Origin: a virus
Reading direction: 5' to 3' (one strand)
Length of the DNA: 32,999 bases
IMG/VR virus record: IMGVR_UViG_3300042090_001375
Location: 1-32,999 of that record
Made by a program: the position numbers and the translations under genes. Positions 5,619 to 29,146 of this stretch are shown here, in pieces. Each line of letters starts with the position of its first letter. Within the stretch, counting starts at the first letter, position 1. The notes beneath the pieces were generated by a model. The model was not told the origin of the DNA and did no database searches. It was given only the letters and a program-made list of their open reading frames with translations.

Positions 5619-6350
5619 ATGGCAGAAGGAATCACAGTACATTTGGGTGGCAGACTCGGCACTCTGTTCGGCAAGGAGTGGAAAGGTCTCTGCGTGTCTA
5701 GCCCCGCTGAGGCATTCAGAGCCATCGACATCAATACCAAGGGGCGTTTCAGACAGTATCTGGCCAAAGACCCCAAGAGAGAATATCATGTCACCATACA
5801 GAAGAAGAGCGCCGAGACTTGCTTGTCGGCTGAAGAGCTTAAGCACAGAACCGGAAACGGAGACATATACCTGTTACCGGCCATTCAGGGGCGCAATAAC
5901 GGGTGGGTGAAGATAGTTGCCGGAGCGGTGTTGGTGGTTATAGGAGTTGCAATAGATTACTTTTCTGGAGGAAGTTTGTCGTTGTTAGGTAATGCGTTTA
6001 TAGCCATGGGATCTTCTCTCATTCTTGGCGGTATTACTCAATTGCTTACTCCCATTCCCAAACAGAATCAACAGCTTCAATCCTACAACTTCCAAGGGAA
6101 TGCCACGACCGTGAATCAAGGTGGGTGCGTACCGATCTTCTATGGTCGTTACCTAATATCTCCAGTGCCGATCTGTGTGTCCTTCAGCGCTTCTGACATC
6201 AACTACTCAACCAACAACATACAGGGTGGCACTGTTACCTCCAGTTACTCCTCAAACGGCAACGGCGTTCAATACGGTCCCGGCGATACCACTTATCCCA
6301 CTGTCCCCGCGCCAATTGGCTTTGTGCCCCCATATTCAGGAGACGGCTAA
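5619..6350 (+). CDS. Lambda gpI-like tail assembly protein
   Basis: 243 aa, preceded by AAGG about 7 nt before the ATG. The N-terminal domain (residues 1-90) starts with a short beta strand and contains FRAIDINTKGRFRQYL and GDIYLLPAI, as in gpI-family proteins. Residues 96-143 are strongly hydrophobic and glycine-rich (two membrane-type segments), followed by TVNQGGCVPIFYGR, the TVxQGxPVPxxYGR signature of this family. The C-terminus is Ser/Tyr/Pro rich. gpI is needed for tail tip assembly and acts just before gpJ, and the gene lies 3 nt before the gpJ homologue. The hydrophobic block is typical of the family, but whether it enters a membrane is unknown. Confidence 0.85.
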   Translation: MAEGITVHLGGRLGTLFGKEWKGLCVSSPAEAFRAIDINTKGRFRQYLAKDPKREYHVTIQKKSAETCLSAEELKHRTGNGDIYLLPAIQGRNNGWVKIVAGAVLVVIGVAIDYFSGGSLSLLGNAFIAMGSSLILGGITQLLTPIPKQNQQLQSYNFQGNATTVNQGGCVPIFYGRYLISPVPICVSFSASDINYSTNNIQGGTVTSSYSSNGNGVQYGPGDTTYPTVPAPIGFVPPYSGDG

Positions 6351-11609: not shown

Positions 11610-11843
11610 ATGAGTAAGGAAATAACAAAGGCAGTACTAGAAAGTCAAGTCGCCCGTCTTGCGAAAGATGCGGCGGACATTCAAGAAGGAATCAGAGCCA
11701 CGGAACGGCAGATACAGGAACTCGTGAAGCAGATAGACAGAAATCACGGCGCATTGAGCTACAACGCCATTCTCGCGGCATCCCTGCAAAAGCAGCTGGA
11801 GGAGCTTAAGGCTGTTCCAGATGCACCGCCGGTCACTGGATAG
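11610..11843 (+). CDS. Small coiled-coil protein after gpJ
   Basis: 77 aa, beginning 6 nt after the gpJ stop and ending inside the convergent tube gene (11-bp overlap of stop regions). The sequence is almost all helix, with heptad-like Leu/Ile/Ala spacing (VARLAKDAADIQEGIRATER, LVKQIDRNHG, LQKQLEELKAV), so a coiled coil is likely. No known family recognised. Its place at the end of the tail operon suggests a tail accessory or chaperone, but this is context only. There is no strong ribosome site, so coupling to gpJ translation is plausible. Confidence 0.65.
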   Translation: MSKEITKAVLESQVARLAKDAADIQEGIRATERQIQELVKQIDRNHGALSYNAILAASLQKQLEELKAVPDAPPVTG

Positions 11844-13119: not shown

Positions 13120-14161
13120 AGTTCATGAAGAGGTTGCCAGCCGTACCGCTGATCCTGTTGATATCATATATCTTGGTGGTCCAATCCATGGATACTTTAG
13201 TGTAATCTCCGATCTGTTCGGAAAACGATTCGTTGCCGAGTTTAGCCCCTATGAACTGAACAGAGTAGTAATCTACTGTGCTTGCCCCGCTTTTGAAGGT
13301 CACGTTGAAGTTCCATCCCGAGTCTGGACAGCCGAACCTGTTTAACGCATCTGCTTGAAACCCATTGACATATGCGTCGGCATGAATAGACACGGTCACC
13401 GGCCAGTGAATAGGGCGGTTATCCGGGTATGCGTATCCAAGCTGTTTGGACGCCAGTCGCGAAAGATCGACCGAGAACCCGAAGTTCTGAACCAGACACG
13501 AGACGTTTCCACTCATGATTGCACCTATGGCTGATCCTGTGTCAAAGCTGAGTATGATGTTGCTGGGGGCAGCCTCGAAATATCCGCTGATTGCCTGACT
13601 GAAAGGCGGCAGGGAATATTTACCAGTGCACGCCGCCCCGTTCTGTTTGTTGATATAGGGAATGATGTTGCCGGAACCGGTGCCCTGAATCAACAGGTTC
13701 AGGCAGTCTACCGACACCGTGCAGATGGTCGGTTGTCCCACCGAGGATTTGAAATCGTATCTGGTGATCACCCCATTGCCAAACGCCATCACGAAATTGT
13801 TGCCGCCCGCATATCCTATCTGATCGTAGTTGGCTTGGTTTATCAGTATGTAATAGTTCCTTTCGCTGTTGAGGTTAGCCAGTGCGGGAGTACCGCTTCC
13901 AAACACAAAACCCAATCCCGATTCGTTGGTGCCGTGGGCGAAAATATAGGAGAAACCAAGCGTGGCTATGGGCCGCGTGGCCAGAAACGGATCACCACCC
14001 TCCGACCAGTCTATGGTATCCTGACGTGGATACGTGAACACCACACTGCTGCTTTGCGCCCCATTTATCGGGGTGGAACCCGTATACTCAGCAGTCCAGT
14101 TCGACGGCGATGTGCTGCCGATTATGATCCCTTGGGTGCCGTAATTGAACAGTTGGCTCAT
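13112..14161 (-). CDS. Probable tail tube protein, short paralogue
   Basis: 349 aa, ATG 3 nt after the stop of the 159-aa neck-like gene. It shares the whole fold of the downstream 428-aa paralogue (MSQLFNYGTQGIIIG against IFNYATQGVMVGG at the N-terminus; KVSMDWTTKIYDINRISG against KVSMDWSAHIYDINRTSG at the C-terminus) but lacks the C-terminal extension. The sequence is beta-rich with a conserved DTIDWSEGGDPFL segment. Two tube proteins, one with an added domain, would allow a mixed tube, or one copy may serve as a tube initiator or terminator. Function inferred from gene order only. Confidence 0.55.
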   Translation of the reverse strand: MSQLFNYGTQGIIIGSTSPSNWTAEYTGSTPINGAQSSSVVFTYPRQDTIDWSEGGDPFLATRPIATLGFSYIFAHGTNESGLGFVFGSGTPALANLNSERNYYILINQANYDQIGYAGGNNFVMAFGNGVITRYDFKSSVGQPTICTVSVDCLNLLIQGTGSGNIIPYINKQNGAACTGKYSLPPFSQAISGYFEAAPSNIILSFDTGSAIGAIMSGNVSCLVQNFGFSVDLSRLASKQLGYAYPDNRPIHWPVTVSIHADAYVNGFQADALNRFGCPDSGWNFNVTFKSGASTVDYYSVQFIGAKLGNESFSEQIGDYTKVSMDWTTKIYDINRISGTAGNLFMNYA

Positions 14162-14164: not shown

Positions 14165-14644
14165 TTACGGACTGGGATAGCTATACGGACGTGCATAGTG
14201 CACGCTTTGGGGAACTGATATACGCAGCTTGTAATCGTGAATGGCCAGACGCAGGTTCTTGTCATTGTCTGTCTTCATGGCTATATACGACTGGGCAATC
14301 TTGGCGGCATCCAAGCGTGAAATTTTGGTATCGCCCTCAGCTATGGATGTCCAGAACGAGCCGCCGTTGGCCAGCGTGTTTAGGGAAGCGCTGGCATAGT
14401 AAGACGACAAATATGTCATGTTATAGATGTCTGCTTCCTCGCCGCCAAAGTTGCCACAGTTATCTGTGATGCCACCATCCCCGCTTACCCAAAAGCTGGT
14501 TGACAGCTTGTTGTTCAGTCCTCCAAGATTGCCGGAATCAAGCAGCCATCCAGATATGAATCCCACCGATATGTTGGAGGGGGAACCTATGTTGGTGTAA
14601 ATGTTCGTCGCAAGATCAACGACCTGATAGACATCGTAACTCAT
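14165..14644 (-). CDS. Head-completion / neck-like protein
   Basis: 159 aa. Lies between the capsid-side genes and the tube genes, where head-tail connector proteins are coded. A segment WTSIAEGDTKISRLDAAKIAQSYIAM resembles the EGDxxIxR...IA..Y pattern I associate with phage head-completion (connector) proteins; ahead of it is a probable helix (EEADIYNMTYLSSYYASASL). The ATG lies 4 nt after the stop of the 47-aa small gene. I am not certain of the family; another virion protein is possible. Confidence 0.5.
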   Translation of the reverse strand: MSYDVYQVVDLATNIYTNIGSPSNISVGFISGWLLDSGNLGGLNNKLSTSFWVSGDGGITDNCGNFGGEEADIYNMTYLSSYYASASLNTLANGGSFWTSIAEGDTKISRLDAAKIAQSYIAMKTDNDKNLRLAIHDYKLRISVPQSVHYARPYSYPSP

Positions 14645-14648: not shown

Positions 14649-14792
14649 TTATTTACACGACAAATCGGATCGAGTATGTCTCTTGTTGCCGAATAGACGC
14701 TTCAATTGCCGCCATAGCTTGGAGAGCACCTTTTCCGTAACGAAGTCGAGGCAGGATTTGTAAAGAAAGTGGATGAAAACCCACTCCCACAT
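14649..14792 (-). CDS. Small basic 47-aa protein
   Basis: Short open frame (MWEWVFIHFLYKSC start, ending RSDLSCK) filling the otherwise empty 149 bases between the 145-aa and 159-aa genes. It starts 1 nt after the stop of the 145-aa gene and stops 4 nt before the next ATG, the same tight packing as its neighbours. GCAGGT sits about 4 nt before the ATG. The N-terminal half is aromatic/hydrophobic and the C-terminal half is rich in Lys/Arg (KLWRQLKRLFGNKRH), giving an amphipathic, possibly membrane- or nucleic-acid-binding helix. No family recognised. Confidence 0.5.
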   Translation of the reverse strand: MWEWVFIHFLYKSCLDFVTEKVLSKLWRQLKRLFGNKRHTRSDLSCK

Positions 14793-14793: not shown

Positions 14794-15231
14794 TTACCTG
14801 CACCTAGAAGACAAAATGCGTATTGCCTGATCTCTTTCGGATTCCTCTTTTGACGGTGCCTGATTAAAGGAACGATCAGAAGCGCCGACGGCGGTTTTGA
14901 ACTTGGACGTTTCCTGAATGAATTTCTTCTCCAGTCGGTCGATCAGAACCTCCTTGCTGTCAGTGGCAAGCACGGCGCGGTTATATGCCTCTTCCTGCAG
15001 CTGATACAGGTTCATGCCCCTTAGATCTGCGCTGTATGCCGCCAAACTGCTGCTCTTATACCCGTGTGTTGGAATGCCCAGTATTTCATACACGGACGTT
15101 GGCGATTTGATCTCTCCGTCTGCCACTTTTGCCGTGGCTATATTCACGCGTTTACGCGTGCGTTTGACTGGGGCCGGTGCCGGGGTGGCAGCGACCGTTT
15201 CAGTAACCTGTCCCGTTGATTCAGTTGACAT
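14794..15231 (-). CDS. Unknown structural-region protein
   Basis: 145 aa from the ATG at 15231 (MSTESTGQV). A longer start at 15246 is possible but would place GAAAGG, a good ribosome site 6 nt before 15231, inside the coding region. Residues 1-45 are disordered, with Ala/Pro then a basic KRTRKRVN stretch. The rest is helical (YEILGIPTHGYKSSSLAAY, LYQLQEEAYNRAVLA, LIDRLEKKF), ending in a charged tail. First gene after the terminator that follows the capsid gene, with a GTGTAATAC element 45-50 nt upstream, so it may start its own transcript. Function unknown; a connector or capsid-interior role would fit. Confidence 0.65.
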   Translation of the reverse strand: MSTESTGQVTETVAATPAPAPVKRTRKRVNIATAKVADGEIKSPTSVYEILGIPTHGYKSSSLAAYSADLRGMNLYQLQEEAYNRAVLATDSKEVLIDRLEKKFIQETSKFKTAVGASDRSFNQAPSKEESERDQAIRILSSRCR

Positions 15232-15275
15232 AATTTGCCTTTCCATGACCCAGCCGAAGTGGCCGGACAGACGTA

Positions 15276-15281
15276 TTACAC
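15276..15281 (-). promoter_or_regulatory. GTGTAATAC element before the 145-aa gene
   Basis: On the - strand: GGTTTTTGGTGTAATACG. The six-base core GTGTAA is followed by TAC, as before the decoration and portal genes. It lies 45-50 nt before the start and just downstream of the capsid terminator, which is where a promoter would be expected. Confidence 0.4.
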
Positions 15282-15311
15282 CAAAAACCAGTTAGGTTAT
15301 ATCACAAACTC

Positions 15312-15341
15312 CATAAAAAACAAACCCGCATTTCTGCGGGT
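15312..15341 (-). terminator. Rho-independent terminator after major capsid gene
   Basis: On the - strand: ACCCGCA, loop GAAA, TGCGGGT, then TTGTTTTTTATGG. The 7-bp GC-rich stem with a GAAA tetraloop and U-rich tail is a textbook intrinsic terminator. It lies about 28 nt after the capsid stop codon, so it separates abundant head transcripts from the neck and tube genes. Confidence 0.88.
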
Positions 15342-15368
15342 GTGTTGTAAGTATTTGATACAGCCTGC

Positions 15369-16508
15369 TTAGAATACAAGGCCCACGACGTTCCTGCCGT
15401 CAAGAGCCACACGGCCCTCGCGCAGCTTGGCGTAGAATCCGATTTCCTCGGACCTTACACTCCACTGGTTGTCCGTTAGGACGCTCAGTGTGGAACCATC
15501 ATCAGGGTTTGTCTCGACTAGACGGGCAAGGAAGTCCTGCCTCTTGTCGATACCGAGAACGAGCTGCTCAGAACCGGGAGAGAACACCGAGGTCGTGGTG
15601 CTGCCGATACCCTGACCGAAGTTGGGGTACTGATAGACCGTGGGACCGTTGGCATACGAACTGAAGACGATGTTGTAGGGGAAGCCCTGACCCATGTCGT
15701 ACACGTTGATCAGCTCCATGCCATAGATGGAAGGATTGCCGACCGACTTGTAGATGTCCTCACGGAACTCCTGAGGACCACCAAGGGGATAGGTGTTGGA
15801 AACCGTATTCAGGGGCTCGAAGGCCATGTTGCGGATCTGCTGGTGGAATTCGGGAGAACCCACAAGCGTTGTGATTGCGCGGCTGGCACCAGCGGGCGTA
15901 CCACCAACCCACGAGGAGTTGACGCGGCTCATTAGGGTGAACAACAGCGAAAGGTCCTGAGGAATCACGCGACCCTGCGTATTGGAGCGAAGAATCTGGT
16001 TCGTCAGAACACCCTTGTAGTAGAACTGGGACTGTGCAGCGACAGCGGCCAGAACCGCGAAGGAGTTGGCCTCCTGCTTGTACAGGAATTCCTGCGCCAT
16101 GCGCTGTAGATAGGCGGCGACCACATCGACACGGGCGGCGCGAAGGTAGTTGAGGGGGAATGACACCGCGCTCTGGAGAGCGTAGGTCATGACCATCAGC
16201 TCGGACACATCCGAGTTCGAGGAGGTTGCGAGACCACCCGGACGGGACTGTGTCCAGACCTTGATGAAGTCGTTCTGCTTGATATCAAACAGAGGAGCCA
16301 GAGGAATCGAGGACGGCGTGCCGTAGTCGTATGTCCATGTGGTGAAGAGGTTGCCGATCACGGGCTCAGACTCGATAACTTCAAGGATGGGCGAGGTGAT
16401 AAAGGCGGCGAAGGCTTCACGGGCGGCCAAAGCCTTCTGAGAGTCTTTGTCTGCCATCAGCTTCAGGAGCTTTGCGTTGTTCGCTGTCTTGTCAATGGTG
16501 ATTTTCAT
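15369..16508 (-). CDS. Major capsid protein
   Basis: 379 aa. The position (after protease/scaffold and decoration genes, before a strong terminator), size and HK97-fold-like pattern fit: a long helix with AAYLQRMAQEFLYKQEANSF, a central domain with proline-rich loops, and a C-terminal beta segment VLGIDKRQDFLARLVE...EEIGFYAKLREGRVALDGRNVV. TAAGGA 10 nt before the ATG is a strong ribosome site. The N-terminal about 25 residues are Lys/Asp-rich and helical and could be trimmed by the upstream protease; no large delta domain is fused, consistent with a separate scaffold. Two residues that would form HK97-type crosslinks cannot be assigned. No exact family was matched, so the call rests on context and general fold pattern. 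Confidence 0.8.
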   Translation of the reverse strand: MKITIDKTANNAKLLKLMADKDSQKALAAREAFAAFITSPILEVIESEPVIGNLFTTWTYDYGTPSSIPLAPLFDIKQNDFIKVWTQSRPGGLATSSNSDVSELMVMTYALQSAVSFPLNYLRAARVDVVAAYLQRMAQEFLYKQEANSFAVLAAVAAQSQFYYKGVLTNQILRSNTQGRVIPQDLSLLFTLMSRVNSSWVGGTPAGASRAITTLVGSPEFHQQIRNMAFEPLNTVSNTYPLGGPQEFREDIYKSVGNPSIYGMELINVYDMGQGFPYNIVFSSYANGPTVYQYPNFGQGIGSTTTSVFSPGSEQLVLGIDKRQDFLARLVETNPDDGSTLSVLTDNQWSVRSEEIGFYAKLREGRVALDGRNVVGLVF

Positions 16509-16531
16509 GTTGCTTGATCCTTAAGTGTTTA

Positions 16532-17218
16532 TTAGACTGAGGTGTCGAATTGGAAGAGGGCGTATCCACCCATCGTGGCCCACTCGTTCTGGAGGCCGGT
16601 GTTGGTTGCTACAGGAAGCTGTGTCAGCCACTTGCCGACAACCTGCTGGCTGTGGTAGATCTGGTTGGAGGCACCTGTGTTTGCCGTCTGGAAGTACACC
16701 GAGTTGTTCGGATCGACTGCGGCCACCAGACCGTTGCCGGAACGAGAGATCACCACGACGTTGCCGGGGTGAATCTGGCCAATCGACTGGTCAATGTACT
16801 GACCCCACAGACCGATGATGCCCTTGGTGATAATCGGCACAGTCTCACCGGAGATAATCGCACCAATTTCCTTGGCACGACGCTCGTTGTAGCGAAGGGG
16901 CTGACCGTTTTCGTCAAATTCAAGCGTGCTCAGCTCGGTAAATCCAAGTGCGCTGTAGATCGTGTCACCCGAAATGGTGGCCGTGACCTTCAGCTTGGTC
17001 TCATAACGCTGGGAGATGGCCTGCTGATTGTAAATCTGAGGACCGCCGCCGACATATGTGCCAACCGCCCAACCGTCAGCGTTCTGAGGGTTGGCGGCAC
17101 CAGTGATAATTTTCACGAGTGTACCAGCGAGTCCGGTCACATCCATGGAGTACAGGGAAACAACCTCGTGCTCGTCGAACTGGTGTAGGGGATAGAATCT
17201 ATTGCGAATTGTTGACAT
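16532..17218 (-). CDS. Probable capsid decoration protein
   Basis: 228 aa, between the protease/scaffold gene and the capsid gene. In lambda and many phages this slot holds the head decoration protein. The sequence is beta-rich and Gly/Val rich, with few charged clusters (SGETVPIITKGIIGLWGQYI, HPGNVVVISRSGNGLVAAVD) and no signal peptide. AAGGAG 9 nt before the ATG predicts high expression, as for an abundant virion protein. A GTGTAATACC element lies 29-34 nt upstream. An alternative is a minor capsid or vertex protein. Assignment rests on position and composition. Confidence 0.6.
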   Translation of the reverse strand: MSTIRNRFYPLHQFDEHEVVSLYSMDVTGLAGTLVKIITGAANPQNADGWAVGTYVGGGPQIYNQQAISQRYETKLKVTATISGDTIYSALGFTELSTLEFDENGQPLRYNERRAKEIGAIISGETVPIITKGIIGLWGQYIDQSIGQIHPGNVVVISRSGNGLVAAVDPNNSVYFQTANTGASNQIYHSQQVVGKWLTQLPVATNTGLQNEWATMGGYALFQFDTSV

Positions 17219-17236
17219 GTTTATTTCTCCTTGAGA

Positions 17237-17253
17237 GTATTAGGTATTACACT
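17237..17253 (-). promoter_or_regulatory. AGTGTAATACCTAATAC element before decoration gene
   Basis: On the - strand AGTGTAATACCTAATAC, 19-35 nt before the start. The 11-mer AGTGTAATACC recurs exactly before the portal gene (21043-21053). The 16-base core matches the element inside the protease gene (18090-18105) at 14 of 16 positions. Candidate promoter or leader signal. Confidence 0.5.
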
Positions 17254-17257
17254 ATTT

Positions 17258-18079
17258 TTAGGCGGTTTTCTTATTTTTTAAGGATTTTCCATCAATTTTG
17301 AAAGAATCTGCAAACGCGGCCTTCATCTCGTCTAGCATGTTGGTATCAACCTGCACGCTGGTTGTGACTGTAGCCTCACCCTTGTTCGCAATGATAGAAG
17401 CGAGAGCTTCGCGGACTAGCTTCTCTGCCTTTGTTTCAGAAGCCTTCGAGGCTTTGTCACCCTTCTTTTTCTTACCGTCCTTCTCGCCGTCTTCGTCATC
17501 TCCATCCTCGTCGTCGTCATCGGGGTCGTCTGTGTTTTTACCCTTGGGCTCTTTGCCCTTTTCAGCATTGAAGGCGGAATCATCTTCCTTGCCCTTCTTA
17601 GCCGCTTCGGATTTGTCATCCTCTTTCTTGTCTTCCTTCTTGTCGTCGGCCTTTTTCTTGGCCTTGCCAGCAAGGAGCTTCTTGCACTTGGACATATAAG
17701 CCGCAAAAGACTCATCATCGAGAGAGGTAATGTCCTTAGCGATCAGCTTGATATCTTCCTCATCAAGATCAAATGTCTCGGCAAAAGCATTCATGCGCTC
17801 TTGGAATTTCTGGGCTGTCTGTTGTGCGGCAGCCTCTTCCTTAAGCTCGCTCAGTTCCTTCTTAATGGCTTCAAGGGAAGCCTCCAGCTCCTGAGCGCGT
17901 TTCTCATTGGCGGCGCGAGCCTCTTCTGTCGTCTTGATCAGATTCTCCTTGGCCTCTAGGTTTTTGAGATAATCCGTGGCACCCTTTTCAATAGACTTTA
18001 CGAAGTCTATGACGGAGGCTGCTCCTTCAAATTTGCTGAGTGCTGCTTCCAGTTCCTGTAGATTGGTAATCTTGCTCAT
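17258..18079 (-). CDS. Candidate nested scaffold protein (internal start)
   Basis: In-frame product of 273 aa from the ATG at 18079 (MSKITNLQELEAAL), sharing the stop of the protease gene. The ATG lies exactly where the protease/linker ends and the coiled-coil scaffold begins. The 16 bases at 18090-18105 match the leader element of the decoration gene at 14 of 16 positions, spaced 11-26 nt before the ATG. Lambda Nu3 is the known model: a scaffold made from an internal start within protease gene C. There is no strong ribosome site, which lowers confidence. Confidence 0.5.
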   Translation of the reverse strand: MSKITNLQELEAALSKFEGAASVIDFVKSIEKGATDYLKNLEAKENLIKTTEEARAANEKRAQELEASLEAIKKELSELKEEAAAQQTAQKFQERMNAFAETFDLDEEDIKLIAKDITSLDDESFAAYMSKCKKLLAGKAKKKADDKKEDKKEDDKSEAAKKGKEDDSAFNAEKGKEPKGKNTDDPDDDDEDGDDEDGEKDGKKKKGDKASKASETKAEKLVREALASIIANKGEATVTTSVQVDTNMLDEMKAAFADSFKIDGKSLKNKKTA

Positions 18080-18958
18080 GGTATTTTCGGTATTAGGGTT
18101 TACACTGGCATTTACGGGAGTTATATTTTTTTCTTCACTTTTCTGACAAATTTCTGTTGGTTGCACGATTTCTGATGCTTTATCATCATGACCATCCGGG
18201 TCTTTAGGCTTGACATATTCGGGTGTTTCCACGGGGAAAATACCTTTGACTTCAGCAGCGGGATTGGGGACAATGCTATAGCCCAAAATCATGGATTGTC
18301 CGCCAATGATACGAAACACCGGTTTGCCAGAAGGATCTTTTCCATCTCCCTTATTGACACGTAGATAACGATCATATGCCGCGAATTTAGGGTCTTCGGG
18401 TTTGATGATTTCCGCATCAAACAGGTTGCGGCTGCCCACTCCGATGGAATAGCTATTGAAGGCAATCTCCCACGACATCGATAGGGAATCAGCGCTATCA
18501 TCCGCGTTGTTACGTATATATTTGGAAAGCATTGGGTTAATGGTTTTCCAAAGCACTCCGGCAAACGCCATATTGAAAGGTTCTTTCAGTGCCGCGCTCT
18601 GTTCAAACGTAAGTGGTTCATTAGTACCAAACTTGGAGAACCCGGGATACAACACTACACCAACGGGCTTGGAACGGTCATGATCGGTCGTTATATATTT
18701 GTTCTTGGCTGTATCGTGTATAGCAAGAGCATCTTCGTTGCTGATTCCATCATCATTCTTGTTGACCAATCCGGCCACCGCCCCGTTGCAGCTGATGAAT
18801 AGAAGGTCGGGACTATCTTCTGGATTGATGTCTGGAGGAAGGATGCTCTTTAGAGGAGCCAGTGAAGCCTTTGCAATGAATCGATCCTCTTCCGTGGGAT
18901 TGATTACGCGAGCCGTTGCAGTGAAGGTAGTAGTATACTTGAAGAGCATGGACAACAT
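17258..18958 (-). CDS. Prohead protease fused to scaffold protein
   Basis: 566 aa. Residues 1-240 look like a prohead serine protease: H93 in YITTDHDRSKPVGVVLY, a Ser in SLSMSWEIAF (S162, or S160), and the family-typical GYSIVPNPAAEV that follows the catalytic core. After a Lys/Pro/Glu linker comes a scaffold-like region: a long coiled coil (residues about 300-400), then a very acidic/lysine-rich tail (about 430-525) and a final helix. The protease would cut the scaffold and itself to mature the prohead. An in-frame ATG at residue 294 with its own upstream element suggests a separate scaffold product, as lambda C/Nu3. No clear ribosome site at 18958; ATG at 18949 is also possible. Protease and scaffold calls rest on motifs and position before decoration and capsid genes. 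Confidence 0.8.
   Translation of the reverse strand: MLSMLFKYTTTFTATARVINPTEEDRFIAKASLAPLKSILPPDINPEDSPDLLFISCNGAVAGLVNKNDDGISNEDALAIHDTAKNKYITTDHDRSKPVGVVLYPGFSKFGTNEPLTFEQSAALKEPFNMAFAGVLWKTINPMLSKYIRNNADDSADSLSMSWEIAFNSYSIGVGSRNLFDAEIIKPEDPKFAAYDRYLRVNKGDGKDPSGKPVFRIIGGQSMILGYSIVPNPAAEVKGIFPVETPEYVKPKDPDGHDDKASEIVQPTEICQKSEEKNITPVNASVNPNTENTMSKITNLQELEAALSKFEGAASVIDFVKSIEKGATDYLKNLEAKENLIKTTEEARAANEKRAQELEASLEAIKKELSELKEEAAAQQTAQKFQERMNAFAETFDLDEEDIKLIAKDITSLDDESFAAYMSKCKKLLAGKAKKKADDKKEDKKEDDKSEAAKKGKEDDSAFNAEKGKEPKGKNTDDPDDDDEDGDDEDGEKDGKKKKGDKASKASETKAEKLVREALASIIANKGEATVTTSVQVDTNMLDEMKAAFADSFKIDGKSLKNKKTA
18090..18105 (-). promoter_or_regulatory. GTGTAA-type element inside protease gene, before nested start
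   Basis: On the - strand GTGTAAACCCTAATAC, 14 of 16 identical to the element before the decoration gene, but located inside coding sequence (linker between protease and scaffold). It supports an internal transcript or translation start for the scaffold. Confidence 0.42.
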
Positions 18959-18963
18959 TGGTT

Positions 18964-18969
18964 TTACAC
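18964..18969 (-). promoter_or_regulatory. GTGTAA element at protease start
   Basis: On the - strand ATTGGTGTAAAACCAATG. The core sits in a 6-bp hairpin (ATTGGT / ACCAAT, loop GTAAA) whose 3' arm touches the ATG at 18958. It may be the promoter-like element seen elsewhere, or a structure that limits initiation at 18958. Confidence 0.35.
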
Positions 18970-18984
18970 CAATATCAGCCGTGT

Positions 18985-21024
18985 TTATTCGCCAATAAGC
19001 GGTTTTGTCTTGCTGTGATACAACAATATGGCGTCACGATTATCCAAGTGATGTTCAGTGGCGATGTCGTCAAGCTCGTTGGCGACAGCAGTGGGCACTA
19101 ACGGAGGCTGCTTGATTGCCCCGGCCACAGACTTGATCCACCGGTTGCGGGGATAGGTGGCCATGATGCTGTCCACCAAAGAGTCGGCGATTTTGGCTTG
19201 TGTCTCGTCCAGCTCTTTGACCTTGAAACGTTTTTTGATATGGGCAACCACCTCGTTGTATAACGTGTCGCTCATCTTCATGTTGTCCACATACTCTTTG
19301 ATGGAAAATGCATACCCGCCCCTGCTTGTGCCAATCTGCCCCGGTTTTCTGTTGGGCATTTTGGTTCCGCTTGTACCGGGAGGTCGGCCATTGCCAGCGG
19401 GGCCTACGGCACTTCCATCCTCTTCCGGTGCGGAAGCACCCACCAACGGATAGTACTTGCCAGCATCCCTATCCTTTTTATACTGAGTCTGAGCATCTTC
19501 CATCTCGTCGGCATCGGGAAGAATGCCTGTTTCAATGGCCTTTACAGCCTGTTCCGCCGTGAGAATGCCAAGTTGCGCGAGCTGCGTGTAGATCCTGTAT
19601 ATGACAGTGTCGTCCTGTAAGTCAATCTTGCGGAAGCTGATCTTGGGAATGGTGCGGAACCCCATGTCCTCACACACCTGAATTATCTCGGGCATCAGGA
19701 AATCGTGAAGAAACGCCTCCTGTCCTTCCTTTAGACGTTGAATGAATATCTTGGCCTTGGTCTGGGCGTTGGCAAACTTGTCCTGATCCTTGCCGCCCAT
19801 GATCGATTGAAGTCCATCAAGAATGTCTTGGTTGACCACCTCATATTTTTCTGGCCCCAAAATGTCTTCCAGAGGAGGAATAACCCATTTTGCTTCAGTA
19901 GTAAAATCCGCCACCAATACGCGTCCAATTGCGGGGTTGTTGAATAGGTTTTGCAGACGCGCAATGTTGTTGGGGTTGATTCCGTTGCCGCCATTGTATT
20001 GTGATGCAGTTTCGCCCGTTGTAACCAGCAGAATTGCATGCTCAATCGTGCGGGCAAGCTGCTTGTCCATCTTGGTAAGAGCGAGCTTCCATTCGACGGA
20101 AGGCAGCACCGGGAAGCACATTGGCGTGGCCAAAGGTTCGTAAGACTGCTTCTTATAGAAGGCAAAGCGCAAACGCGTGGGGTCCATTGGAATGAAAATG
20201 CCCAGAGGATAGGCCGCTGTTTGCTTGATCTGATCCTTGACGAATTGCGGCAAATCGTTGAACACCTGTTTGTCCTGTTCCGTCATCGGATGACGCAAAC
20301 GTTCGATGTCATATATAGACAACAGACGTGTGTACGTATAGGGAAACGTCAAACCGGTGGGAACGAATACGCTTGCCGGGTTGAGCAGACTGTAACGAAT
20401 TGGGATGCGGTTGTTGGTTGCTCCGAAAGACTCTTGCAGGTTCTTGTAGTATGCTGGGCCAAACTTGCCACTGAACTTGTAGATGAACACGTTACCGGAA
20501 CGGTAGTATTCTCTAAAAAACTCCTCCTTCAGTCTGTGCATCTGAATGGCGTGGAACCATTCCTTGAAGAAGATACGAACCGTCTCGTTGGTTGTCTTGA
20601 TATGAAGGGGCTGATTGGAAAACTCAACGGCAATCTCAATTGCGTTGCGAATGGAAGGCACACCGGTCCAAGCTCTCATGCATAGTTCCACAGCGTCCTT
20701 GACACCGGTATAAGCCCGATTGTCGCCGAATCCGGCGTAGGGGACTGGCATTGCTCTGATGTTTGAGAACGCATCCGGGTCTGTCCACCCCCTGTTGTGG
20801 ATTGGTCCACGCCCTTCTGACCCGGAATCTGGCACTGCACTCCCGTGTGCTATAGTGGTTGATCCATAGGCTAAATCAGGAAACGGTTTTGGCGTGATTT
20901 GGGGGCTGGCCGCCTCCGTGTGAACGTGAATGGGCGTGGGGGCTGGGGCGGCAGGGGTTGCGGGCATATTCGCGCTACGGCTTTCCCAATACGCGGTGTT
21001 GTGTTTGGTATACGTTCTTGGCAT
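18985..21024 (-). CDS. Portal protein
   Basis: 679 aa from ATG 21024 (MPRTYTKHN). A longer start at 21078 would put the GTGTAATACC element in coding sequence and is less likely. The N-terminal about 60 residues are Pro/Ala-rich and disordered. The core has portal features: KDAVELCMRAWTGVPSIRNA, then EEFFREYYRSGNVFIYKFSG, a wing with strands and PxxFPVLPSVEWKLALTKMDK, and the long helices of the stem/crown (KFANAQTKAKIFIQRLKEG, QLAQLGILTAEQAVKAIETG). The pattern 'ILTAEQAVKAIETGILP' near the crown is common in portals of this type. Twelve copies form the DNA entry vertex and dock the terminase. It lies directly after the terminase gene and before the protease, the standard order. The C-terminal about 130 residues are charged and helical. 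Confidence 0.85.
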   Translation of the reverse strand: MPRTYTKHNTAYWESRSANMPATPAAPAPTPIHVHTEAASPQITPKPFPDLAYGSTTIAHGSAVPDSGSEGRGPIHNRGWTDPDAFSNIRAMPVPYAGFGDNRAYTGVKDAVELCMRAWTGVPSIRNAIEIAVEFSNQPLHIKTTNETVRIFFKEWFHAIQMHRLKEEFFREYYRSGNVFIYKFSGKFGPAYYKNLQESFGATNNRIPIRYSLLNPASVFVPTGLTFPYTYTRLLSIYDIERLRHPMTEQDKQVFNDLPQFVKDQIKQTAAYPLGIFIPMDPTRLRFAFYKKQSYEPLATPMCFPVLPSVEWKLALTKMDKQLARTIEHAILLVTTGETASQYNGGNGINPNNIARLQNLFNNPAIGRVLVADFTTEAKWVIPPLEDILGPEKYEVVNQDILDGLQSIMGGKDQDKFANAQTKAKIFIQRLKEGQEAFLHDFLMPEIIQVCEDMGFRTIPKISFRKIDLQDDTVIYRIYTQLAQLGILTAEQAVKAIETGILPDADEMEDAQTQYKKDRDAGKYYPLVGASAPEEDGSAVGPAGNGRPPGTSGTKMPNRKPGQIGTSRGGYAFSIKEYVDNMKMSDTLYNEVVAHIKKRFKVKELDETQAKIADSLVDSIMATYPRNRWIKSVAGAIKQPPLVPTAVANELDDIATEHHLDNRDAILLYHSKTKPLIGE

Positions 21025-21042
21025 TGTAGAATTCTGTTCTTT

Positions 21043-21062
21043 GGTATTACACTGAAAATACC
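21043..21062 (-). promoter_or_regulatory. AGTGTAATACC element before portal
   Basis: On the - strand GGTATTTTCAGTGTAATACC. It contains the same 11-mer AGTGTAATACC as before the decoration gene, 19-29 nt before the portal ATG, and can fold as a 6-bp stem (GGTATT / AATACC). Confidence 0.5.
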
Positions 21063-21096
21063 ACTGGTTATGAAACAAAGTAGAATCTAACCAAAA

Positions 21097-24000
21097 TCAA
21101 CCGCCTATCCAATAAGGGAAGTCTTGCGGCCCCGTTTGAACATTGATTTCTAGCGAATCTAGATAAAGCTTCACAGCCCAATTACATAGCAGTAATGCGC
21201 TGTATGAGTCTTTGCGCTCTTTGGCGGGACCGCTTGTGCGTTTGGCACTTTGTGGCAATCCGAATGTAAGCGTACCTAATTCAGTGCTCTTGACCTGAAT
21301 CATTGCACATTCCTTGCGTGTTAGATCCAATAGACGATCCTGCCATTCGATGAAGTCGTTGTTACTGAGGCGTTTAGTATCAGTGTCGATCAAATCCGCG
21401 TGAGACTGAAGCATCCCAAGGTCTACGTTAAGTGCGTGTCCTATCACCGCCCCGTCATGCGCACCTATTTTGCCGCCGAACATAATGCGATGATGGTCAA
21501 AACAAGCTTGCAGATACTCGTTTGCCGCCCTCTGGAACGCGGAGCTGAACGGCTGTTTCTGTAAAATACGACCCGCCGTTCGGTTGTAACTGCGACGTAT
21601 CTGGGTGGGCAACTCTTTGTAGTCATCCTTCTTGAAGTCCGCCTCGATTGACGACAGCTTGATACGTTGATCTATGAAAGCCTTGGACTGGTTGCAAGAA
21701 TTGACAAACTCCAGTTCATCACCCTGCGAGGCATCCAGCGCTATGTATACCACGTTGAAATGAGTGAGGATGTATAGGAAATACGTCATATGATCCGTAA
21801 GACTGCCACCAGCCACAGCATAGGAGTGCACCACCATACCGATACGCCTGTCGTCAGTGGGGCGTTTGACTAGTTTCATGACACACATTGCAAAATGGTC
21901 AGATCCCTCGCTTCCAGACAGGGCTTGGTCGATGCCAACCACATATTCCGCATCCTTTTCGCCCACCAGCTCTAGACATGGTAGCTGTCCATCTTTCACA
22001 CTGCAATCGAACATCTTTGATGCGCGGAAATATCCATCGGAGTCACTGGAGAACACGGCACCATATTCACGCTTAAACATGGCTTCTGATATATCCTTCT
22101 TGGCCTGTTCGATTTCCTTCATGTTGAGCAACCCGGCTGGAGCAGCCTCGTATCCGATTCGTGACACGAAATACGACGTGCCGGATTCCCTCATCTCCTG
22201 TGCACGTTTCTCATCAGTGATCAGGCTCACCCAATCCTTGTAACGCTTAAACATGTGTTCAAATTCGTAGCAAGCCGAACTTAGGAAGATTACCTTCTTG
22301 AAATCATCGATCAAAGTACGTTCCGCTTCTGTCATTACACCCTGAGCAATCAGCTTGTCTTCATTTTCCTTGTTTTCTATCTGTTCTTTGATCTTGTTGT
22401 TTGCCGTAAGAAACGGACGAAGCACTTCGCCAATGATGGTTTCAGGCAGGTAGGCAAATTCATCCACAATCAATGTGTCGGCTCGGGTACCACGAATCTT
22501 GGTGCCGTCGCCCAACGGCAGACACTGAATTGTCGATCCATTGGGAAGTTTGAGCAACCATTCATCAGTCTTTCTCTGTATATCCTTGTCAAAGCACGCC
22601 TTGAGAAGATACGCGTCTTCGTCTTGAATGAACTTCTCGACCTGTTCCAAAATTCGACGGCTGGCACGAAAGGCGAAGCTGACTATGACTATACGATTCT
22701 TCGGGTTTAGTATCCCCCAGATGATGGCAAACAGGGCAACTGTCCAGCTGTTGTGATTGATAAATCCATTGGCCCAATATCGTGATCCAGTAGGAACGTT
22801 GAAATCGAGACAATCATGTTGGAATGCCTCTATGCCAGTAATAGGCGAGTAGTAATAATGATCCTGAGCCATCACACGCATGGGGGCAAGTTCGTATCCA
22901 GATACATCATTGCGTTCAAAAAACTCAATGTAACGATCTAATGTATCATACGTCAGATGCCGCTGATTATTCTTACGACGAATCACGTTGCGCCATTCAG
23001 TACTAGCCTCTCCTTTGAGGCGATAACGTGATTTTACACGCTGAGCATATTCCTTGGCTCCCGGTACCACATCCTTATTGGTATTGCGCTTGTGATAAGA
23101 ATTAGATTTAAGAACCTCGCGTTTACGTGTAAGACGAAAACCAATCTTGGCGGCAAATATGTCTTGATCTGCGCCCATAATTAATATGGTATATACCTTG
23201 CCAAACGTCGAAGGCGTTTTGCGTACTGAACGAGTAGAGACAATGCCAAAAGTAAGTAGCAAGAGTTGTATTTGGTGAGATAATCTCTCGGAAACGGTGC
23301 TGTAACCAATACCACCTTTCGTATATGCCGTGCCATCTGTATCAAACAAGCCTCGCAGACATTCACACGACAACGCTTTGCTCTTAAGAATACTGGGCGG
23401 GATTATCTTGTCGTACGATAGACAGCTTTTGAACCCATATTTGGCTTGGAAAGCCCTGCCGTATTCAGCGTTAAAGTCAATGTCCACAGCAGCAGTCTTG
23501 CTCTTGGAATATCGCTTGGTGTGCGGAAAGCGTTCGAAGAACGCGAGTATCTCTTCGTCAATAGAAGTGATGCCAATTCCTCCACGTTTGGATGGGGCAT
23601 AGCAGCCGTCTCCTATAAGCAAGCCCATTAGGTAAGCTTCGTCTAAATCCTGTTGAGTAACCGCTTCTCCCCATTCGGATTCGGAACGACTGATACAGGC
23701 GTAATCACCCTCTTTGATTTCATGAAAGCGCTTCCATTCGGCTTCCAGTGTGTTGGTGTTAAGCACCTTGATAAGATGATTAGTGGACCCCTCCAACAGG
23801 TATCCATCACGGGTTGTAAGACGCAGACAATCTTTTTGTGGTTGTACGTATATCTTTGATGTCAATTGCCACGACTCACCATTCCACAGATATGTTTGTG
23901 GTATATCAACCCATCCCTCTTGGGCGAAGTCTATACCGGGAAGCAAATCAGGTAATGCTATGAGACCATGATCGCGAGATAGCAACTGGCTTGAAGCATT

Positions 24001-24315
24001 ATACGTGAGCGTTTTGGAAACGCCTCTCCCCCAAACACCTAGATTGTAATCGTTGTGCATCCATCCTTTGATTATCACCTCCTGCATGGGAAACAGCTTG
24101 ATGCCCGCAATCAGGTCCACCATGAATGCCGGATTGGCAAACAAGAACTCGGCCAGTGTTGCCATGGCCTGATCGTCGGTCAACTCGCCCTGCAGGGCCA
24201 TCATCTTATTCGTGACGTTTTCGCGGGGTTTGATATTGTTGTATCCTTGTACCCAAGATGGCGGTTTGAATGTTTCTGTTACTGGCATGGCAAAGGATCG
24301 ATCAATTGTTTGCAT
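21097..24315 (-). CDS. Terminase large subunit, split by an intein
   Basis: 1072-aa precursor; about 651 aa after splicing, a normal TerL length. N-extein residues 1-101 end in WGRGVSK, and the C-extein resumes at S523 (SWTVALFAIIWG), so splicing restores GRGVSKS, the Walker A loop. Walker B is TLIVDEFAYL (D618, E619); motif III is FLSSACYE. The nuclease domain starts at YVVGIDQALSGSEGSDH (D796), with IALDASQGDE (D861) and GAHDGAVIGHALN as later acidic motifs. TerL pumps DNA into the prohead and cuts it. Without splicing the ATPase is broken. The gene overlaps the end of the nuclease gene: 37 nt from ATG 24315, or 10 nt if translation starts at ATG 24288 (MPVTETFKPP). No clear ribosome site is seen at either. 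Confidence 0.92.
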   Translation of the reverse strand: MQTIDRSFAMPVTETFKPPSWVQGYNNIKPRENVTNKMMALQGELTDDQAMATLAEFLFANPAFMVDLIAGIKLFPMQEVIIKGWMHNDYNLGVWGRGVSKTLTYNASSQLLSRDHGLIALPDLLPGIDFAQEGWVDIPQTYLWNGESWQLTSKIYVQPQKDCLRLTTRDGYLLEGSTNHLIKVLNTNTLEAEWKRFHEIKEGDYACISRSESEWGEAVTQQDLDEAYLMGLLIGDGCYAPSKRGGIGITSIDEEILAFFERFPHTKRYSKSKTAAVDIDFNAEYGRAFQAKYGFKSCLSYDKIIPPSILKSKALSCECLRGLFDTDGTAYTKGGIGYSTVSERLSHQIQLLLLTFGIVSTRSVRKTPSTFGKVYTILIMGADQDIFAAKIGFRLTRKREVLKSNSYHKRNTNKDVVPGAKEYAQRVKSRYRLKGEASTEWRNVIRRKNNQRHLTYDTLDRYIEFFERNDVSGYELAPMRVMAQDHYYYSPITGIEAFQHDCLDFNVPTGSRYWANGFINHNSWTVALFAIIWGILNPKNRIVIVSFAFRASRRILEQVEKFIQDEDAYLLKACFDKDIQRKTDEWLLKLPNGSTIQCLPLGDGTKIRGTRADTLIVDEFAYLPETIIGEVLRPFLTANNKIKEQIENKENEDKLIAQGVMTEAERTLIDDFKKVIFLSSACYEFEHMFKRYKDWVSLITDEKRAQEMRESGTSYFVSRIGYEAAPAGLLNMKEIEQAKKDISEAMFKREYGAVFSSDSDGYFRASKMFDCSVKDGQLPCLELVGEKDAEYVVGIDQALSGSEGSDHFAMCVMKLVKRPTDDRRIGMVVHSYAVAGGSLTDHMTYFLYILTHFNVVYIALDASQGDELEFVNSCNQSKAFIDQRIKLSSIEADFKKDDYKELPTQIRRSYNRTAGRILQKQPFSSAFQRAANEYLQACFDHHRIMFGGKIGAHDGAVIGHALNVDLGMLQSHADLIDTDTKRLSNNDFIEWQDRLLDLTRKECAMIQVKSTELGTLTFGLPQSAKRTSGPAKERKDSYSALLLCNWAVKLYLDSLEINVQTGPQDFPYWIGG
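22750..24012 (-). other. Intein with LAGLIDADG homing endonuclease in TerL
   Basis: 421 residues (precursor 102-522). N-terminal splicing block begins TLTYNASSQLLSRDHGLIAL; block B is TTRDGYLLEGSTNHLIKV with the TxxH-type TNH. The endonuclease carries two dodecapeptide motifs, LMGLLIGDG (residues 229-237) and LRGLFDTDG (320-328), both with the catalytic acidic residue. C-terminal blocks are CLDFNVPTG and ANGFINHN, followed by Ser+1. The penultimate His and final Asn are present. The insertion is exactly at the Walker A Lys/Ser junction, a site often used by inteins in ATPases. The first residue appears to be Thr rather than Cys/Ser. Splicing is expected because the host protein is essential and otherwise intact. 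Confidence 0.9.
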
Positions 24316-25190
24316 TCGTAAGCGTATTGGAGATCCACACTCTTTATGCTTATTCCCGCACTTAAGATTCTAGTCACGGCATGAGACGCCTCTACACGGT
24401 CCTTGACAAAAAGCGCCTGTACATTGTCATAGTGACTGAGTAAGTCACGCAGGCGCTTGAACACGTGTGCGGCTGTAACCGTTCCGTGTTTTGGCTTGAA
24501 CTCAAGAGCAACGGATATGGGTGACTCAACCAATATTATGACATATGCGCCCACCTCCTTTGCACGTTCCATCTCCCTAAGAAAACGATCATGCCCCAAC
24601 GATAAAGTTCCCACTAGATCCACCAGACTTTTTCGTTCCACATAGACGCCCAAGTCCCTATCTGGAATGAGCCCATAATCGCCCACGTTCAGTTTGGAAT
24701 GAATTGCCCCCACCAATCCCAACGGATTCTGTTCTCGCGTGTCTATAACCATCGATCCCAGCGGCAATGATTCGTAGGTCAATTGACCGGTGAACCTGAT
24801 TTGGTACCCAAGCTGGGTGCATATGGCGTTATAGCCGCCCACCCTGTTGTAGTAGTGAATTGACGGACACATGAGAGATTCCAGTTCTACCTGTGTGGGA
24901 GGATATATCAGATCCTTCTCGGACTTTCTCTTCATTAGCCAATCGACAGCCCACTGTCGTCCCTCGACGGGATTGGCAGCAATCCACTTCTTCAGATTGT
25001 CCTTGCACAGGAACTCTGTGGCAAGGTATTTGTCCACCGTGGTAAAAGGAATGGTTTGGCCAGTTAACCGGTCTCTCCTGTCATAGTATGTAACGTAGTA
25101 GGTCTCCTTTTTAACCTTAAGCTTGCGCAAATGCTTATGCAGGTCAGCAAGTGATTCGTGCCACGTTTGATCTATGAGACAGTTGAACAT
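24279..25190 (-). CDS. ERCC4-type (XPF/Mus81 family) nuclease
   Basis: 303 aa. Residues 146-290 hold the full ERCC4 nuclease signature: MVIDTREQNPL (D150), NVGDYGLI (GDY 170-172) and VYVERKSLVDLVGTLSLG (ERK 185-187), then RFLREMERAKE. Such enzymes cut branched or flap DNA. The N-terminal about 110 residues include a basic segment (KVKKETYYVTYYDRRDR) and a possible small DNA-binding unit (PTQVELESLMCPSIHYYNRVGGYNAI-like fold). It lies between the putative small terminase and TerL, overlapping TerL, so it is co-expressed with packaging. It could resolve branched replicating DNA before packaging; this role is inference. Confidence 0.85.
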   Translation of the reverse strand: MFNCLIDQTWHESLADLHKHLRKLKVKKETYYVTYYDRRDRLTGQTIPFTTVDKYLATEFLCKDNLKKWIAANPVEGRQWAVDWLMKRKSEKDLIYPPTQVELESLMCPSIHYYNRVGGYNAICTQLGYQIRFTGQLTYESLPLGSMVIDTREQNPLGLVGAIHSKLNVGDYGLIPDRDLGVYVERKSLVDLVGTLSLGHDRFLREMERAKEVGAYVIILVESPISVALEFKPKHGTVTAAHVFKRLRDLLSHYDNVQALFVKDRVEASHAVTRILSAGISIKSVDLQYAYECKQLIDPLPCQ

Positions 25191-25191
25191 G

Positions 25192-26343
25192 TCAATTTAG
25201 GATGTCGTCCTTACTCAGACCAAAAATCTCCGCTTTGAGCGAATCCATATCACTCAACCTTTCTATCTCCTGCTTTAACGCTGCCTTTTGTTTGCGCTCA
25301 TTCATCTGGATTATCTTCTTCCTATCCTCCTCGTGTTTCCACCTCTCGACTAGATTGTGCAGTGAAGCGCTAGCCTGTATCTTGTCGTTGAGTCGTTTTG
25401 CACGGTCCCCCACCAATGTCTTAAGCAGCGAGGCGCTCTGCTTCATTGAAGCATTGGCCTTTTCTCGCACGGCGTTAAGAAACTCCACCTCGTTGAATTG
25501 GATCTTTGCGCCGGGGGTTTCCAAAACCGACTGCATACGCTCATCGAGTTGTGCAATCGTCCTCTCTATCTGTGTGCGTCTAACGGTTTCAGCCGCGAAC
25601 GATATGTACTGTATCACCTCTTCAGACAATAGATCGGGCTTGTCCCAACATACCGCGATGAAGGTTGATTCGAACAGCTCGCGGTCATCCCTGCGAATGT
25701 ACTTGTTTCCCTCTATACGATAAAGCACCATTTTCATGTAGCTGAGCAAGCCCTGTAGCTGCTTGCGGTCGTTGTTGCTTAGGTTGGCATAATCGTATAT
25801 GGGTTTGCCGTCCTTCTTAGGGTTGACAGCATACCGGTTGACCTTGGGGACAAGCTGCTTCATGTCAGATGGCGGCTCATAAGGGCCGTCCACCCATTCT
25901 TCACCGCGTCTGAACGAGGGGTCTATTTCCCGGCAGTAAGAGACGATCATGCGGCACTGAGGGCTGCCCACCATGATGTTGTCGTTGCCAAAGAGTACTT
26001 TTGCCATCTCCAGCGGAGATGAGCCCCCCATGTTGTTGCGTATATACTCTTTCTGGTCCTCGGTTAGGACACTGTCGCTTTCTGGTGTGGCGGGCACCAC
26101 TGGTACACTTGCCTTTCCCGTTGCCGCCAAGCGCAGTTTTATAGCCTTGCATTTGACGCTGCGACCATCGATGGTGGGGTCATTGAATACTAGCCGCGTC
26201 AGTTCTTTGACATCCATTTGCCAGTTTTCATCGATTAGCTTGTTCTGCTCATCGGTCAACACGGGTATGGGCTGGGCAGACTTGGCATACTGCTTTTTGC
26301 CCCCATTTTCCAGTGTGGACTCAGATGTTTCTATATCACTCAT
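25192..26343 (-). CDS. Possible terminase small subunit (DNA-binding, two repeats)
   Basis: 383 aa. Two similar N-terminal units, residues 28-73 (VLTDEQNKLIDENW...ELTRLVFNDPTIDGRSVKCKAI) and 92-139 (VLTEDQKEYIRNNM...EMAKVLFGNDNIMVGSPQCRMI), look like helix-turn-helix domains with a shared pattern. The C-terminal half is a long coiled coil (QIERTIAQLDERMQSVLE, then lysine-rich helices to the end). A DNA-binding head plus a helical oligomerisation region, one gene before the nuclease and two before TerL, fits TerS. It stops 1 nt before the nuclease start. No TerS family was recognised; another transcription or packaging factor is possible. Confidence 0.5.
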   Translation of the reverse strand: MSDIETSESTLENGGKKQYAKSAQPIPVLTDEQNKLIDENWQMDVKELTRLVFNDPTIDGRSVKCKAIKLRLAATGKASVPVVPATPESDSVLTEDQKEYIRNNMGGSSPLEMAKVLFGNDNIMVGSPQCRMIVSYCREIDPSFRRGEEWVDGPYEPPSDMKQLVPKVNRYAVNPKKDGKPIYDYANLSNNDRKQLQGLLSYMKMVLYRIEGNKYIRRDDRELFESTFIAVCWDKPDLLSEEVIQYISFAAETVRRTQIERTIAQLDERMQSVLETPGAKIQFNEVEFLNAVREKANASMKQSASLLKTLVGDRAKRLNDKIQASASLHNLVERWKHEEDRKKIIQMNERKQKAALKQEIERLSDMDSLKAEIFGLSKDDILN

Positions 26344-26353
26344 ACACAGTAAG

Positions 26354-26359
26354 TTACAC
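26354..26359 (-). promoter_or_regulatory. GTGTAA element in the gap before the TerS-like gene
   Basis: On the - strand TCTGGTGTAACTTACTG, in the 68-base gap between the sigma-like and TerS-like genes, 11-16 nt before the ATG. It is the least similar of the set beyond its six-base core. Confidence 0.3.
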
Positions 26360-26411
26360 CAGATTTGGAACGAGTTGTGTATTGCATCATATCTCGATGC
26401 ACATCAATCAG

Positions 26412-27092
26412 TTATGCTAGGTCCTGCTCTTCTATGATCTCTTTGGCCTTGAGAACAATAAGCTTCTTGAGCTTGAGAAGCATCTGATACCCCTCGTAGG
26501 TCTTCGTGCCCGTTTTCTTGTAACCAAGTTCCTTGCCAACTTCCTGCTCTGATTTGCCCTCGATGTATATCATGCGATAGATCATGTACTCGTTTGCATC
26601 CAGCTTGTCCTTCATTTTTTCATCGATGATGGATTTGGAACCGGCTATATCAAGAAAGTCGCTTTGTATTGAGTTGACCTCCTGCATATGATTCTCAAGA
26701 GGAAGAGTCTGCTGCACCCTGAAGTGATCGAGTTTGCGACGCTCCCAATTGCGATATAGAGGACATTCAGCGCATTGGAGCTTGCTGGGGGTCATAAGAC
26801 AAGCGTCCCCGCCTCCATTGTGCGGGCAACCGGTCACGCAAGGTCGGCTGAACTTGGTATGGTTGTTTCGAAGAATGTTGGTCTTCTCGTTGGTGATCAG
26901 TTTTGACAGCCAGTGGGAAAACTTGCCCTTCTCGGGATCGAACTTATGGTACTTGAAGAACACCCGAGTCAGCAACTGCTGCCTCACATCCTCCCAAGGC
27001 ATGCTCGCCAGCTTCCAGTCGCCCTTTCGCTTCTCTATCTGACTCTCTATAGTTGGTACTAGAGATTCGAATGTTGGCTTGTCGATAGGCAT
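26412..27092 (-). CDS. Sigma-factor-like protein with cysteine-rich insert
   Basis: 226 aa. Residues 31-76 (PWEDVRQQLLTRVFFKYHKF, then GKFSHWLSKLITNEKTNILR) follow the sigma-70 region 2 pattern, including the FSHWL-x-I-x-N-x-x-x-x-x-R stretch. Residues 160-215 (KLDANEYMIYRMIYIEGKS, EQEVGKELGYKK) look like region 4, the helix-turn-helix that binds -35 DNA. Between them is a cysteine cluster, C85-x3-C89, C98, C107-x2-C110, probably zinc-binding, which standard sigma factors lack. A phage sigma could direct host RNA polymerase to late promoters. The ATG overlaps the stop of the zinc-ribbon gene by 1 nt, so the two are coupled. The call is by pattern; it could be a divergent ECF-like factor or a sigma-derived DNA-binding protein. 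Confidence 0.62.
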   Translation of the reverse strand: MPIDKPTFESLVPTIESQIEKRKGDWKLASMPWEDVRQQLLTRVFFKYHKFDPEKGKFSHWLSKLITNEKTNILRNNHTKFSRPCVTGCPHNGGGDACLMTPSKLQCAECPLYRNWERRKLDHFRVQQTLPLENHMQEVNSIQSDFLDIAGSKSIIDEKMKDKLDANEYMIYRMIYIEGKSEQEVGKELGYKKTGTKTYEGYQMLLKLKKLIVLKAKEIIEEQDLA

Positions 27093-27496
27093 TAACGCAT
27101 AGGGGTAGGATGAAGCATGTGCTTGAGAGCTTCCTCCTTGGCCTTGGGAAGACCCGCGTCAGCCTCGGCAAATCCAGTGCCATTCTCGAAACGTTCAAAC
27201 GACATATCCTTGGGTATTGTGCTGCCAACCACCTTGCCCTCCTGCGTTATATTCACGGTTACCTTCTGCCGTTTTTCCCCCTCGACATGCACGCTTAGGG
27301 ACGATGGAATTTCCTCCTGAATCTCTTCCATTCGCTGAGCCTTCTCTTGGAATCGATCAACCTTGCGTGCTGTGGTGGAGGATGATCCCCTTTCAATCTT
27401 TCGCACGAATGGTTCTGAGCAGAAAGCACAGAAGGCGGGCTTGCGTTCAGACCAGTCTGTCGCGCCCCCACACGATTGACAATATAGCTTGGGCAT
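27092..27496 (-). CDS. Zinc-ribbon protein upstream of sigma-like gene
   Basis: 134 aa. N-terminal zinc ribbon: C6-x2-C9 and C23-x2-C26 (LYCQSCGG...AFCAFCSEP). Residues 40-65 are a charged helix; residues 65-95 form likely beta strands (LSVHVEGEKRQKVTVNIT); the C-terminus is helical. Its stop overlaps the start of the sigma-like gene, pointing to a linked role in transcription or DNA handling. No specific family recognised. It begins 12 nt after the stop of the membrane protein gene. Confidence 0.65.
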   Translation of the reverse strand: MPKLYCQSCGGATDWSERKPAFCAFCSEPFVRKIERGSSSTTARKVDRFQEKAQRMEEIQEEIPSSLSVHVEGEKRQKVTVNITQEGKVVGSTIPKDMSFERFENGTGFAEADAGLPKAKEEALKHMLHPTPMR

Positions 27497-29039: not shown

Positions 29040-29146
29040 GGTTTGATGCAATACCTCCATCATGAGTGACTTGATCGAAATGTCAAGCCTAAATGAGATC
29101 AGGTCTCAGTTGCATCAGAGAGGACATGTTATAAGCTCTGCTAATA

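Follow-up and report, generated by a model that had tools for sequence, protein, structure and literature searches.

What is the function of the hexamer GTGTAA, which recurs in the short gaps before genes of this viral DNA, and which factor would recognise it? The window referred to throughout is the whole 32,999 nt stretch that was analysed. The original prediction offered two readings, a shared leader and a promoter used by a phage-specific polymerase factor, of which the second is supported by enrichment in gene gaps, a two-part structure with near-constant spacing, placement at orthologous genes and an adjacent sigma factor gene. A promoter role for the GTGTAA sites is strongly suggested, and we put at a little over three in four the probability that the repeats are phage late promoters, read by the sigma factor encoded at 26412-27092 on the host RNA polymerase core.

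The six copies first reported were all found on the minus strand, at 15276-15281, 17247-17252, 18100-18105, 18964-18969, 21047-21052 and 26354-26359. The 11-mer AGTGTAATACC is, as claimed, the same at 17243-17253 and 21043-21053, and the ATAACC...TGGT-TTTT stretch said to precede two copies lies upstream of 15276 and 21047. Two sites beyond these six were located at 14653-14658 (minus strand) and 5595-5600 (plus strand). The expected enrichment was present in the gene gaps of the window and its relatives; over the whole window the bare hexamer was not enriched, with 18 copies counted and 13.9 expected in shuffles. Non-coding DNA makes up 2.1% of the window bases, yet it holds 6 of the 18 copies (binomial P 1.2e-6), so the enrichment is one of position and not of count. 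Each of these six is on the coding strand of the following gene. The copies at 15455, 22335, 23034 and 31138 are intragenic and look like chance occurrences. When up to two mismatches were allowed, AGTGTAATACC occurred 14 times against 6.15 expected (0/100 shuffles).

Since the record that makes up the window is a virus fragment of just 33 kb, relatives were sought. Portal and terminase protein queries retrieved 14 IMG/VR records, including one of 205 kb (G014) and a distant relative of 85 kb (G011). Portal identity to the window was 79% for G001, 38% for the G011 group and 31% for G012. No cultured relative was detected by DNA, portal or capsid protein in the phage collection, and the terminase matched cultured phages only at about 25%; no portal relative was found in the bacterial genome collection. 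Among 6-mers in gene gaps, GTGTAA ranked first in the window (5 sense vs 0 antisense), in G014 (19 vs 1), in G011 (15 vs 3) and in the pooled close relatives (19 vs 3), and it is common to groups of 32% and 52% GC. In two unrelated control phages it ranked 1099th and 1124th among 6-mers.

When the copies were aligned and the relatives compared, GTGTAA proved to be the downstream half of a bipartite element of the approximate form AAC(C/T)-N12-14-GTGTAA(A/T), in which the upstream half often reads ATAACC/T or ACAACT. Counted from AAC, the spacing is usually 14, and 12 and 13 were also seen, at 17252, 18969 and 5595. In the distant, AT-rich G011 group, no upstream AAC half was apparent. For the bipartite pattern there were 20 matches in G014, and for a reversed control 2. 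A scoring matrix (PWM) built solely from sites of G014 found six window sites scoring at least 10.5, against 1.08 in shuffles, and none of 200 shuffles reached six. The top six window sites by this matrix are all at gene starts or at a nested start. The sites and the features around them are as follows.

5577-5600, plus strand: site before the tail-assembly gene 5619-6350; score 17.2 with spacer 13
14653-14677, minus strand: site before gene 14165-14644, upstream half weak; score 10.7 (G014 orthologue's site, 28.3)
15276-15300, minus strand: site before gene 14794-15246, ATAACC-N13-GTGTAAT; score 15.9 (G014 orthologue's site, 28.7)
15324-15341, minus strand: intrinsic terminator that follows the major capsid gene and closely precedes the next candidate promoter site
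17247-17269, minus strand: site before the decoration gene 16532-17218 and the major capsid gene; best with spacer 12
17258-18079, minus strand: nested ORF from an in-frame ATG downstream of the internal site; coiled-coil-like, putative scaffold
18100-18124, minus strand: nested site within the protease ORF, 26 nt before the ATG at 18079, ATAACT-N13-GTGTAA; score 22.0
18964-18987, minus strand: site before the protease/scaffold gene 17258-18958; score 16.1 with spacer 13
21047-21071, minus strand: site before the portal gene (start ATG 21024), ATAACC-N13-GTGTAAT; score 12.4
26354-26378, minus strand: site before the TerS-like gene 25192-26343, ACAACT-N13-GTGTAA; score 24.3, the highest in the window
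26412-27092, minus strand: phage sigma factor gene, proposed reader of the sites; sigma2, cysteine-rich insert, weak sigma4
29059-29086, minus strand: TTGACA-16-CATGAT, sigma70-like, opening the run of genes whose last member is the sigma gene; consensus match only

The names protease, decoration and TerS-like are labels given earlier from sequence, for which profile searches gave no confirmation; the capsid gene has a weak profile match.

Placement was compared at orthologous genes. Relatives carried a site in 15 of 26 comparisons where the window gene has one and in 0 of 36 where it does not (Fisher 8e-8), and the contrast persisted when G014 was removed (9/19 vs 0/24; 1.6e-4). This count omitted the G011 group, and the G002 protease was scored as lacking a site since a run of N put its start in the wrong place; a site lies 15 bases before the likely start. 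Sites precede the protease orthologue in G001, G002, G004, G005, G013 and G014. GTGTAA (GTGTAG in G014) is found in the portal gap of all seven close relatives, and orthologues of 5619-6350 have a site in G003 (14.8) and G014 (32.3), the latter being assigned to PHROG tail assembly. Most relatives have only a weak site, or none, at the orthologue of the decoration gene, and counterparts of the TerS-like gene lacked a site in the orthologue comparison. That the hexamer was simply repeated by chance accords with its unremarkable whole-window count, but this explanation is refuted by the cross-genome matrix, the orthology comparison and the control phages, and we give it practically no weight.

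Two features might be expected of a signal acting in translation or in the leader, for example in ribosome binding or RNA stability: the element is close to start codons, on their upstream side, and Shine-Dalgarno sequences are weak in some of these phages (G014 and G004). However, start codons lie at variable distances from the element, about 10 to 98 nt, and no leader would include the upstream half, so the shared leader of the original prediction fits less well than a promoter. The two parts with near-fixed spacing, the lack of the element at operon-internal genes and the position of one site closely 3' of a terminator also count against a leader signal, which we consider very unlikely.

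The promoter reading draws further on the two classes of element seen in G014. There, nearly all GTGTAA sites fall within 59-200 kb, ahead of genes for tape measure, tail assembly, protease, portal, PhoH and exonuclease/nuclease. A second, sigma70-like class (TAGAC/TTGAC-N17-TATA.T with a preceding TG) lies almost wholly at 4.5-56 kb and precedes small genes, mostly of unknown function. This arrangement fits early and late promoters. TTGACA also heads the sigma-gene run in G014, in the same place as 29059-29086 in the window; this consensus match is as expected if the host sigma factor makes the phage sigma first. The separate sigma70-like class, which serves different genes, also counts against the GTGTAA sites themselves being -10 elements for the host's housekeeping sigma. 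TGTAAT matches TATAAT in 5 of 6 letters, sometimes with a TG before it, but neither the AAC half nor the conserved G of GTG is typical of sigma70 promoters, GTGTAA recurs across the difference in GC content noted above, and no GTGTAA site was among the minus-strand matches to TTGACA-N17-TATAAT in the window; recognition by the housekeeping sigma is thus highly improbable. Many of the early-like promoters at 4.5-56 kb of G014, CCCTATAGAC...AATCTGCTATAGT, have their -10 just 7 nt or so ahead of the start codon, so that early mRNAs may be leaderless. At 107931 (minus strand) of G014, a site overlaps a terminator-like hairpin, with ACAACC in the loop and the T-run beside GTGTAA.

The candidate reader is encoded next to the packaging genes. 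ORF 26412-27092 matches Pfam Sigma70_r2 (PF04542; region 2, core binding and -10 recognition) at 24.4 bits, with a cut-off of 24, and a PHROG sigma factor at 6e-6. Three relatives' sigmas score 31.0, 24.7 and 25.4 bits with PF04542 and two fall below the cut-off; that of G014 is unlisted. Region 4 (-35 recognition; PF08281, r4_2) matches weakly, at 13.5 bits with a cut-off of 25.7. The TIGR02937 score of 36.2 bits is below the curated cut-off of 42.9, and the protein, which appears to work like an ECF sigma factor, is not filed in any ECF group. In an AF2 model (mean pLDDT 75.5) the C-terminal part folds with good confidence into a helical domain, but the domain packing is unreliable because pTM is 0.39, and the best Foldseek matches to the model are sigma factors at E of only about 0.01. 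Between the two sigma domains is a cysteine-rich insert of about 25 residues (C85, C89, C98, C107, C110), which is probably metal-binding; C85, C89, C98 and C110 are present in 8/8 homologues and C107 in most. Homologues were found in 10 of the 14 relatives; the four records without one are fragments, which may end short of the locus. Searches of cultured phages with the sigma protein gave only chance-level matches, and single-protein and profile searches of viral contigs found nothing. A small gene beside it, 27092-27496 (minus strand), has weak zinc-ribbon-like matches, and a related gene is also near the sigma in G002 and G011.

The sites might be promoters read by another factor, whether a second phage sigma, a sigma with an activator or an alternative host sigma. 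Further factors may be missing from the window, as it is a fragment, and both G014 (59310-59927, minus strand) and G011 (70481-71071, plus strand) encode a second sigma-like protein, without the cysteine insert, which leaves the insert-bearing sigma as the best candidate but not the sole one. However, these second sigmas show hardly any similarity to each other (E 0.05, in region 2 alone). The homologue of 26412-27092 is the only detected sigma common to these two largest relatives, and the group as a whole has retained both GTGTAA and the sigma with the cysteine insert. We therefore regard another reader as unlikely. A phage-encoded RNA polymerase was considered and rejected, as no multisubunit beta domain was found in four relatives in searches with working controls; a search for a single-subunit polymerase, run without a working positive control, gave no match.

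Phage sigma factors with their own promoters have been described. In Salmonella phage 7-11, whose sigma is SaPh711_gp47, the late-promoter consensus GTAAtg-16-aCTA was mapped experimentally (PMC8948821). As there, the window has a phage sigma with a putative region 4, bipartite elements at presumed late genes, a presumed use of the host core polymerase and sigma70-like early promoters, and a switch like that of 7-11 is the best-supported model by analogy. The 7-11 consensus itself is not that of the window, and the cysteine-rich insert and the site inside the protease gene are differences. An earlier in silico promoter prediction for 7-11 (PMC4331800) failed to match the promoters mapped later (PMC8948821), which calls for caution with the present one. 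The evidence here is stronger in that several genomes and position-matched orthologues were used, but it is still evidence from sequence. The sigma of Escherichia phage phiEco32, gp36, lacks region 4 and uses a single element, tAATGTAtA (PMC8948821). It likewise switches to middle and late genes through short repeated promoters, but most sites here have two elements and the sigma has a region-4-like domain. T4 late transcription depends on the sigma-like factor gp55, together with gp33 and the sliding clamp, at TATAAATA without a -35 element. Like T4, the window has a sigma-like phage factor and, ahead of genes for head and tail, a conserved short -10 element; it differs in the -10 itself and in the added upstream element. 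E. coli sigmaE, an ECF sigma, recognises a -35 of GGAACTT (PMC3397946). The AAC of the upstream element and the two-domain architecture, best matched by ECF profiles and structures, recall this class, from which the sigma is set apart by its score under the curated cut-off and its inter-domain insert.

Under the model preferred here, early transcription by the host sigma would make the phage sigma, which would bind the host core polymerase and recognise the bipartite element. Each site would then start its own late transcript, for the packaging genes, the portal, the protease, decoration plus capsid, and the small genes that follow; the decoration and capsid transcript would end at the terminator 15341-15324, and the tail-assembly transcript would come from the plus-strand site. 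A start distance of 6-9 bp is known for 7-11 and phiEco32, and a similar distance here would give some transcripts very short leaders or none.

The site within the protease gene would give the nested scaffold-like protein a separate transcript. ATAAC(T)-N13-GTGTAA occurs in the same frame inside this gene, ahead of an in-frame ATG, in seven genomes (ATAAAT in G005; the G001 record stops short of the ATG). Within it, isoleucine is encoded by ATA in 7/7 genomes (5-34% of their isoleucine codons), valine by GTA in 7/7 (9-35%) and threonine by ACT in all six that have threonine there (11-24%). Rare codons fixed in this way point to selection on the DNA; the flanking residues are also conserved, and selection on the protein could still be the cause. 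The extended nested-site pattern had no match in the bacterial genome collection and, in 2.9 million viral contigs of IMG/VR, matched only four known relatives.

The strategy is well known; what is new is the DNA signal, the odd sigma protein and a candidate promoter hidden within another gene. It is possible, though we hold it with somewhat less than even confidence, that a sigma with a metal-binding insert between its DNA-reading domains has stayed paired with GTGTAA while protein identity fell to about 36% and GC content ranged between 52% and 32%, and that an internal promoter gives the scaffold its own transcript, in an uncultured lineage of large phages. In the 7-11 study it was predicted that more phage sigma-promoter pairs await description (PMC8948821), and the present one is a candidate found by sequence alone in phages without a cultured relative. 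The lineage offers a natural set of diverged pairs for studying sigma/promoter co-evolution, and the GTGTAA element permits annotation of late operons across it.

Two other features of the window genes were recorded. The terminase large subunit (21097-24315, minus strand) contains an intein with a LAGLIDADG endonuclease at about residues 159-526, which is not present in the terminase of the closest relative. The tandem genes 11833-13119 and 13112-14161 (minus strand) both match a single G014 gene, 86130-87401, and are probably the result of a duplication.
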